Of a stretch of 32,778 nt of DNA, positions 15,589-16,533 are shown piece by piece; the first letter of the stretch is position 1; each line of letters begins with the position of its first letter. Made by a program: the position numbers and the translations under genes. The stretch is from a virus. The stretch lies in the IMG/VR virus record IMGVR_UViG_3300043436_000110, positions 1 through 32,778 of that record; one strand, 5' to 3'. Below the pieces are notes generated by a model that worked only from the letters and a program-made list of their open reading frames with translations, was not told where the DNA came from and searched no databases.

Positions 15589-15604
15589 TGATATACTTCA
15601 AAAA
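15589..15604 (+). promoter_or_regulatory. Extended -10 promoter of the cro-like gene (leaderless)
   Basis: TGATATACT at 15589-15597 is an extended -10 element; no good -35 is seen at the usual distance. The last base of the -10 is six bases before ATG 15604, so transcription should start at or within a base or two of the start codon. No Shine-Dalgarno precedes the ATG. Confidence 0.55.
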
Positions 15605-15762
15605 TGGATAAACAAAAGGCTATCACCCTTGCTGGCTCACAGAGTGAGCTTGCCCGTATCTTGGGCATCACTAGAGCCGCAGTTCACAATTGGAAGATGA
15701 TTCCTACGGGGCGTTTGTATCAATTGATGATTCTCAAGCCAGAATGGTTTGACAACAAATAA
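15604..15762 (+). CDS. cro: Cro-like HTH repressor
   Basis: A 52-aa protein, typical Cro size. SQSELARILGITRAAVHNWK is a clear helix-turn-helix, and the C-terminal LKPEWFDNK is usual in Cro proteins of this type. It is transcribed away from the leftward operon, in the cro position of a lambdoid switch. No CI gene lies opposite; only about 160 bases separate the two divergent operons. It likely turns down early transcription by binding the control region. Confidence 0.8.
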   Translation: MDKQKAITLAGSQSELARILGITRAAVHNWKMIPTGRLYQLMILKPEWFDNK

Positions 15763-15778
15763 AAAATGTGCTTATAAT
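15749..15778 (+). promoter_or_regulatory. Consensus sigma70 promoter at the end of cro
   Basis: TTGACA at 15749-15754, 18-base spacer, TATAAT at 15773-15778: perfect hexamers. Transcription would start near 15785. The -35 lies inside the last codons of cro. It drives the structured RNA at 15785-15885 and, by read-through, the replication genes. Confidence 0.75.
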
Positions 15779-15784
15779 TAAATC

Positions 15785-15885
15785 GTTGCCGTAGGAAGCA
15801 ATAAATTGAAGCCGTTTACTCATGCTCTCGCCCTTGGTTTTTACTTTAGGGTTCCTACCGAGGGCAGTAGTAAACGGCTTTTTTT
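15785..15885 (+). ncRNA. Putative small RNA ending in a long bulged terminator hairpin
   Basis: About 101 nt from the expected start of the consensus promoter to a run of seven T. AAGCCGTTTACT (15809-15820) pairs perfectly with AGTAAACGGCTT (15869-15880). Inside it GCCCTTGGT (15830-15838) pairs with ACCGAGGGC (15857-15865), with one G-U pair and an 18-nt loop. A competing pairing is GTAGGAA (15791-15797) with TTCCTAC (15852-15858), which would open the inner stem. So it may be a free small RNA, or a switchable attenuator in front of the replication genes. No RNA family is recognised. Confidence 0.6.
15809..15885 (+). terminator. Rho-independent terminator with extended stem
   Basis: A 12-bp outer stem (15809-15820 with 15869-15880), a nested 9-bp stem and a T-tract at 15879-15885. 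It would stop most transcription entering from cro unless antitermination occurs. Confidence 0.7.
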
Positions 15886-16116
15886 ATGTCCTCTTTTCGT
15901 GCAGCCGTACTCCACACGACAGCAGCGCATTTGCATGGATGGCTTGGAAGAAAACACCGACAACAGGACACACCCCCTGACTTGCCGACCAGCGTTGGTT
16001 AAGCGACTGGTAAAGGATTGGGTACAAAGGTGGAACAAGGCCCAATCTATAAGTGAATTGACCCGTCAAGCGCACTTGGTCGCTTTTGTTTTTAGTTAGC
16101 TAAATTAAGATGAATT
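15886..16116 (+). other. Region without a convincing gene; second foldable block
   Basis: Small frames exist (for example 38 aa from ATG 15886 to 16002) but have no Shine-Dalgarno and no recognisable sequence. The DNA can fold: GATTGGG (16016-16022) pairs with CCCAATC (16041-16047), again around an 18-nt loop, and AAGCGAC (16001-16007) can pair with GTCGCTT (16079-16085), followed by TTGTTTTT. The layout echoes the RNA just upstream. It may be leader RNA of the replication genes or a second small RNA. Confidence 0.4.
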
Positions 16117-16167
16117 ATGGAAAACAGATCGATGGAGAAAGGTGGTATATCCACCCTTGGAGAACCT

Positions 16168-16533
16168 ATGCCTGAATTATTTGAATCAGGGTTTGAGAGA
16201 TTCTGGAAAGCATGGCCCGCATCAACAAGAAAGGGTGCGAAGTCCGAATGTAAAAAGAAATGGGAGAAGCATTATTGCGAAACCCAAACCGACCAGATCA
16301 TCAAACACATTGAATGGTTAAAGACCACAGAGCAATGGCTTAAAGGCAATGGTGCTTTTATTCCCGCCCCCTTGGTTTATCTCAACCAACAACGATGGGA
16401 TGGCGCAGAAGTGCCTGAAATGAAGCCCAAACCCACAATAGACCCCGCCTTGGCAAAGATTGAAGCTGACCGCAAAAAGGCTGCACCGATGCCAGATCAC
16501 ATCCGAGCAAAACTAGCAGAATTAAGGAGATAA
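16168..16533 (+). CDS. O-like replication protein, C-terminal domain only
   Basis: A 121-aa product from ATG 16168, which has GGAGA at 16159-16163; in-frame ATGs at 16117 (138 aa) and 16132 lack a good site. FERFWKAWPASTRKGAKSEC with GAFIPAPLVYLNQQRWDGAE is the C-terminal pattern of phage replisome organisers of the lambda O / DnaT-like type, which recruit host helicase machinery. The usual N-terminal DNA-binding winged helix is missing, so origin recognition must come from elsewhere or not be needed. It heads the rightward replication genes. Confidence 0.7.
   Translation: MPELFESGFERFWKAWPASTRKGAKSECKKKWEKHYCETQTDQIIKHIEWLKTTEQWLKGNGAFIPAPLVYLNQQRWDGAEVPEMKPKPTIDPALAKIEADRKKAAPMPDHIRAKLAELRR

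Follow-up and report, generated by a model that had tools for sequence, protein, structure and literature searches.

What could be the role of an apparently untranslated unit of about 100 nt, preceded by a promoter and closed by a terminator-like hairpin, between a cro-like gene and the replication genes of a phage? The question is raised by a viral DNA of 32,778 nt (IMG/VR record IMGVR_UViG_3300043436_000110), hereafter the window, to which all positions refer unless another locus is named. An earlier note on this DNA wavered between a free small RNA, a switchable attenuator and a processing or antitermination element similar in place to the put sites of phage HK022. The feature is stronger than that note held, and three points described below go beyond it: a hypervariable code that matches itself, the behavior of the unit as a cassette, and a further structured RNA downstream (RNA2).

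Location of the Unit

The end of the upstream cro-like gene (15604–15762, plus strand; Pfam P22_Cro, 6.8e-9; YdaS, 1.3e-9) is overlapped by the −35 hexamer of a promoter (15749–15778, plus strand) in which TTGACA (15749–15754) and TATAAT (15773–15778) are separated by 18 nt and match the sigma-70 consensus at 12/12 positions, exactly as the earlier note had it. The position of this promoter is kept in relatives: a scan for sigma-70-like promoters (score threshold ≥8/12) in 130 distinct members placed the end of the −10 hexamer exactly 6 or 7 nt 5′ of the first hairpin of the RNA (hairpin 1) in 95 of them, as compared with 3% for the same spacing at random positions. Because this spacing is kept, the RNA very probably begins at hairpin 1, i.e., near position 15785, and the whole unit of approximately 101 nt (the RNA1 cassette; 15785–15885, plus strand), supported by matches to our model R1 and by its replacement with another RNA in relatives, would end at the terminator.

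Downstream lies a replication initiation gene (16168–16533, plus strand; PHROG 9474, E 2.1e-14), the start of which is probably 16168 and not 16117: many relatives' alignments begin only at residue 11–21, and in those relatives the sequence through GAACCTATG is conserved leader located upstream of the gene. At 16140–16170, CTTGGAGAACCTATG comes directly after a short stem-loop (GGTGG-TATAT-CCACC). The stretch CCACCCTTGGAGAACCTATG is also kept 5′ of the replication gene; its conservation points to 16168 as the start and possibly to control of translation.

The window bears out the proposed place of the unit, after cro and before the replication genes, but some relatives do not. While the unit precedes replication genes in most loci examined, it lies 5′ of the major head protein gene in L133 and 5′ of the terminase genes in L115; these contexts imply that it is not tied to replication genes and is not always a replication attenuator. 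In L133 (2627–3186), the element and a stretch of some 470 nt devoid of any plus-strand gene stand just before the major head protein gene.

Anatomy and Predicted Folds of the RNA

The RNA is predicted to open with hairpin 1 (15785–15802, plus strand; stem 15785–15789 with 15798–15802), the stem pairs of which are formed at 96.8% in 68 sequences and the loop of which contains a heptamer, A (GTAGGAA, GUAGGAA in the RNA; 15791–15797). After a linker of 6 nt comes a long bulged hairpin with a T7 run, an intrinsic terminator by prediction (15809–15885, plus strand), composed of a 12-bp lower stem (15809–15820 with 15869–15880), a CA/GY mismatch, an 8-bp upper stem and an apical stem, the T7 run occupying 15879–15885. 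Its 3′ arm bears a second heptamer, B (TTCCTAC, UUCCUAC in the RNA; 15852–15858, plus strand), which is unpaired in the minimum free energy (MFE) structure, co-changes with A and is its exact complement over 7 bp. The predicted fold reaches −41.5 kcal/mol (z = −4.85), none of 200 shuffles being equally stable, and the hairpin with T7 described earlier is confirmed. The competing 7-bp pairing of the earlier note likewise proved exact and is the most strongly selected feature of the RNA; to its description can be added that its 5′ side forms the loop of hairpin 1, a small structure distinct from the terminator hairpin, and its 3′ side precisely the 7-nt single-stranded bulge of the latter. The terminator is predicted in all 130 distinct members, each with its stem and 4–8 U, so that the predicted folds combine a stable stem, a U run directly following it and a mutually exclusive alternative pairing, as in intrinsic terminators and attenuators.

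Nascent folds, taken as the MFE structures of RNA prefixes with kinetics ignored, contained the A:B pairing in 119/130 cases when the RNA ended at B, whereas predicted full-length folds contained it in 0/130 and the terminator in 130/130. When A was replaced by another natural heptamer, A:B appeared in only 2/130 predicted folds. The A:B pairing is thus predicted to be an early one that the finished terminator must displace.

A Widespread RNA Family in Phages

A search with the 17-mer AAGCCGTTTACTCATGC matched 118 viral contigs, nearly all with the same anatomy, and a looser two-arm pattern brought in further loci among the matches listed. The combined sets amount to 191 loci analysed (among the matches listed), including 130 distinct ones with a perfect A:B match. 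One locus, L088, has the 17-mer but lacks the hairpin and was rejected as coincidental; L124 is truncated at the end of its contig, and rearrangement has affected L146. Model R1 found the element in 40 of 41 phage records searched whole, in one copy each. Its minus-strand matches were considered as a second element and discarded, the near-palindromic hairpin being merely read backwards. MW202484.1, a circular and complete genome that carries the element, is the sole named record recovered by blastn with a longer leader, and blastn of the element alone against named phages and plasmids returned nothing credible. Among approximately 85,000 species genomes, the element was found in only two, both betaproteobacterial metagenome-assembled genomes (L203 and L204), and the L204 contig (Comamonadaceae) is clearly of phage origin and a near relative of the window phage. 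The RNA family is common in freshwater phages, the window phage included.

This family is absent from Rfam. The element matched none of the 4227 families of Rfam 15, either at the gathering cut-off or at E ≤ 10, and covariance models recovered neither C4 antisense RNA nor any other Rfam family. The search against RNA family models that the earlier note had advised places the element outside the Rfam families, and literature searches turned up no account of this RNA.

No PF00589 integrase and no PF00717 (S24) repressor was detected in 25 carrier records including MW202484.1 (0/25), most of which are linear contigs in which genes may be missed. The carriers look non-lysogenic, and classical prophage immunity would hence be inapplicable to them. 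Two carrier contigs contain tRNA genes (L090, 4513–4584; L093, 1689–1760), the latter some 60 nt upstream of the element.

Coordinated Change of A and B

Several lines of sequence comparison give good support to the views that A:B complementarity is under strong selection and that A and B diversify in coordination. The two heptamers are complementary over their full 7 nt in 189 of the 191 loci analysed (among the matches listed), the exceptions, L196 and L269, matching at 6/7 nt, and this exactness is preserved across 30 distinct heptamers (among the matches listed). Fit of A to the hairpin of another type was encountered in 6 of 3928 comparisons in the first set of loci. The mean duplex energy is −8.3 kcal/mol for matched A:B and −1.8 for mismatched, and G.U pairs, which make up 6–24% of the lower, upper, apical and hairpin 1 stems, are entirely missing from A:B (0). 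The remainder of the structure also covaries, as in the lower stem of L054, where AAGCCACTTAATTCTAC faces GTAGAGCTAAGTGGCTT. In alignment A1, 94.1% of cells are paired and 208 show changes on both sides, the values for shuffles being 85.3% and 57, respectively; these counts understate A:B because the bulge is misaligned by MAFFT in some of the rows. The structure covariation across related phages that had been proposed as a check is therefore present, and this covariation, along with the complementarity in relatives, supports the earlier suggestion of a non-coding RNA with a terminator end and a switchable attenuator.

The code can change between phages that are otherwise nearly indistinguishable. 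L084 and L120 have the same element throughout except for a single base of A and its compensating partner in B; L240 and L254 are 100% identical over the next 250 nt and carry GTCGTAG and GTAGTGG, respectively, each with its matching B; and the L213/L220/L233/L247/L248 group possesses three heptamers. Such joint switching of A and B is as expected of a recognition code. Among pairs whose downstream sequences are 97% identical or more, per-site divergence was 0.099 in A, 0.099 in B, 0.012 in the terminator arms, 0.013 downstream and 0.116 in the apical region; site for site, the rate of change in A and B is therefore approximately eight times that in the terminator arms. We read this pattern as the trace of selection for changing yet exact recognition. 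Fast variation is also seen in the apical loop, linker and upper stem, recombination among existing codes contributes (e.g., L208/L134), and relaxed constraint together with recombination could account for part of the turnover of A and B. Since metagenomic contigs share ancestry, the counts overstate the number of independent events, several independent switches still being visible.

Interchangeable RNAs in the Leader

L007 and the window are 93.7% identical in cro and 99.6% identical in the downstream leader; between the two, the L007 slot holds a 167-nt RNA sharing 44% identity with the window RNA, which is the level of unrelated sequence. By this comparison, the unit of about 101 nt is a cassette. 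The alternative occupant, the type II RNA, is found in at least 120 viral contigs, had no Rfam match at gathering cut-offs and displays a comparable logic: its hypervariable 5′ segment is complementary to the interior of the terminator hairpin on the same RNA over a mean of 9.4 nt, versus 5.5 nt for swapped partners, with 70 distinct segments (among the matches listed). This RNA of approximately 167 nt (L007, ~2620–2790; also L005–L011, L017, L021, and L023) has a 5′ hairpin with AGUGGCAU and the terminator CCCCGCA..UGCGGGG-U5.

The next slot of the window is occupied by a second structured non-coding leader RNA, RNA2 (15905–16079, plus strand), with compensatory changes in 20 of 33 predicted pairs (15 sequences) and no match in Rfam. 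Its alternative first stems, CCGTACTCC and CCGTCAGGG, are swapped between phages. The slot downstream of the element also holds varied structured RNAs; in six phage loci, Betaproteobacteria-1 RNA (RF02932), distinct from the ~101-nt RNA, lies there directly 3′ of the element (L165, 6665–6784, minus strand; L087, L122, L142, L194, and L200), which places RF02932 in phage leaders.

A Candidate Self-Specific Attenuator and its Alternatives

The RNA unit, its A:B pairing and its diversification are well supported by the comparisons above, while action in trans and a role between phages are inferred. The best explanation in our opinion, with a probability of roughly one half, is a self-specific attenuator RNA with feedback in trans by the released RNA. 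Transcription from about 15785 would produce hairpin 1, with A in its loop, and then the long terminator hairpin with its bulge B. When polymerase is at B, A would pair with B, and the completed terminator hairpin would displace this pairing, as folding predicts. Nascent A:B may delay the terminator, allowing some transcription to reach RNA2 and the replication genes. The terminated RNA of about 100 nt, with A and B exposed, could then bind A or B of nascent transcripts bearing the same heptamer and favor their termination, a negative feedback based on a 7-base self-recognition code. Where no protein repressor is detectable, such a circuit might determine when or how much replication takes place, and it might further hamper phages of the same type that enter the same cell. 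Speaking against this explanation are the missing downstream copy of the target (seqC, see below), the head and terminase contexts in L133 and L115, the fast variation of the apical loop, linker and upper stem, and the non-lysogenic look of the carriers.

A purely cis-acting switch, in which A:B controls its own terminator or folding (as attenuator or kinetic folding aid) with no role in trans, is to our mind a possible though rather doubtful reading. It accords with A and B residing on one RNA and with A:B being the predicted transient nascent fold; linker length tracking hairpin geometry, the expected sign of a cis pseudoknot, amounted to only a weak correlation between linker length and the length after B (rho 0.18, p 0.04, uncorrected for ancestry). 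What it leaves unexplained is a code that outpaces the other paired parts and a logic shared by two unrelated RNAs; indeed, recognition is favored over simple folding by the speed of code change and by the sharing of one logic between two dissimilar RNAs of the slot.

We regard as unlikely a free-standing RNA acting in trans and unrelated to the downstream operon, for instance a multimer assembled through A and B. The packaging RNA of phi29 multimerizes through interlocking loops, and a complementary loop and bulge do exist here. Possession of its own promoter and terminator, a single copy per phage and varied genomic positions would suit such an RNA, as would the difficulty, judged from helix lengths and a linker of 4–9 nt, of A and B both staying exposed and pairing in one finished hairpin. 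Nevertheless, a structured leader RNA always comes next in the loci read through, Rfam gave no match to phage packaging RNA, and phi29 pRNA is not known to end in such a terminator.

An HK022 put-like antiterminator or processing element, suggested earlier from the early-leader position and from the fact that no N gene is seen, appears very improbable. The put RNA is about 70 nt long, consists of two stem-loops, suppresses termination and lacks a terminator (PMC9378689). Both are structured RNAs of an early phage leader; the present unit, rather than forming two stem-loops of ~35 nt, keeps a 12-bp stem followed by 4–8 U in every member and ends in a conserved intrinsic terminator, contrary to that proposal. 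As the distance from its start site to putR is ~270 nt in the downstream direction (PMC9378689), RNA2 would be a better candidate than the ~101-nt unit for a put-like role.

Finally, the reading as a short coding frame or as a hairpin arisen by chance can practically be dismissed: an ORF of 97 aa can be drawn from TTG 15806, but, as the earlier note had judged, no frame is convincing, for it has no Pfam match and a best PHROG E of 0.17, covariation, apical-loop and linker indels and cassette replacement all oppose a conserved frame, and the z of −4.85 speaks against chance. The protein-coding reading is thus refuted in substance, no protein families having been found.

Comparison with Known RNA Regulators

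By analogy, the most similar known system is the CI RNA of the satellite phage P4, which is made by processing and pairs with the leader sites seqA and seqC, terminating transcription of the replication genes (PMC4825925). Like this CI (SeqA) RNA, the unit is a small RNA from a replication-operon leader with complementarity to a site in that very leader, and a similar control of transcription termination is proposed. A leader-encoded RNA with its own upstream promoter is found in the window and most relatives, with L133 and L115 departing from this context, and an internal segment complementary to an upstream leader site, the equivalent of seqB facing seqA, occurs in 189 of the 191 loci analysed. 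However, besides the upstream target seqA, P4 has a second, downstream one, seqC, and no seqC was recognized here: within 600 nt, a copy of A was present in 3/63 loci (1.6 expected) and a complement of A in 1/63 (1.4 expected). Membership in the P4 CI group was considered and, since seqC is absent, the unit is not filed there. It also differs in ending in its own intrinsic terminator instead of being processed, in its 30 codes (among the matches listed), and in that P4 is lysogenic whereas no integrase was found in the 25 carrier records.

IsrK of Gifsy-1, for which P4 SeqA RNA has been named as the structural homologue by its authors, acts on translation of an antirepressor operon (PMC4825925). 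The present unit, a phage leader RNA with proposed short and readthrough forms, resembles both IsrK and the C4 RNA of P1/P7, and differs from them in having no Rfam match. C4 antisense RNA likewise acts on translation of an antirepressor operon. In plasmids pT181 and pIP501, the rep genes are subject to antisense-induced attenuation, the specificity of which defines incompatibility. There, too, a terminator in the replication leader is governed by RNA–RNA pairing, as is proposed here, but those plasmids transcribe their antisense RNA from the opposite strand, whereas the prematurely ended sense RNA itself is the proposed agent in the present case.

Implications for Phage Biology

Beyond this unit, a tentative generalization would be that RNA-based self/non-self recognition is widespread in phages without detectable integrase or repressor, each phage carrying one terminator-ended RNA with a hypervariable code and its complement, the leaders of homotypic co-infecting genomes being silenced by the released RNA and at least two unrelated cassettes of one slot following this logic; we consider it possible, at rather less than even odds. 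The coevolution of the two 7-base segments is unusually clean, and the 30 natural codes (among the matches listed) make specificity directly testable. The finding would help explain conserved non-coding leaders upstream of phage replication genes. If the trans reading is true, an RNA code would allow these phages, in which no protein repressor is detectable, to interfere with superinfection or to control the dosage of replication, in a manner comparable to plasmid incompatibility or P4 immunity.
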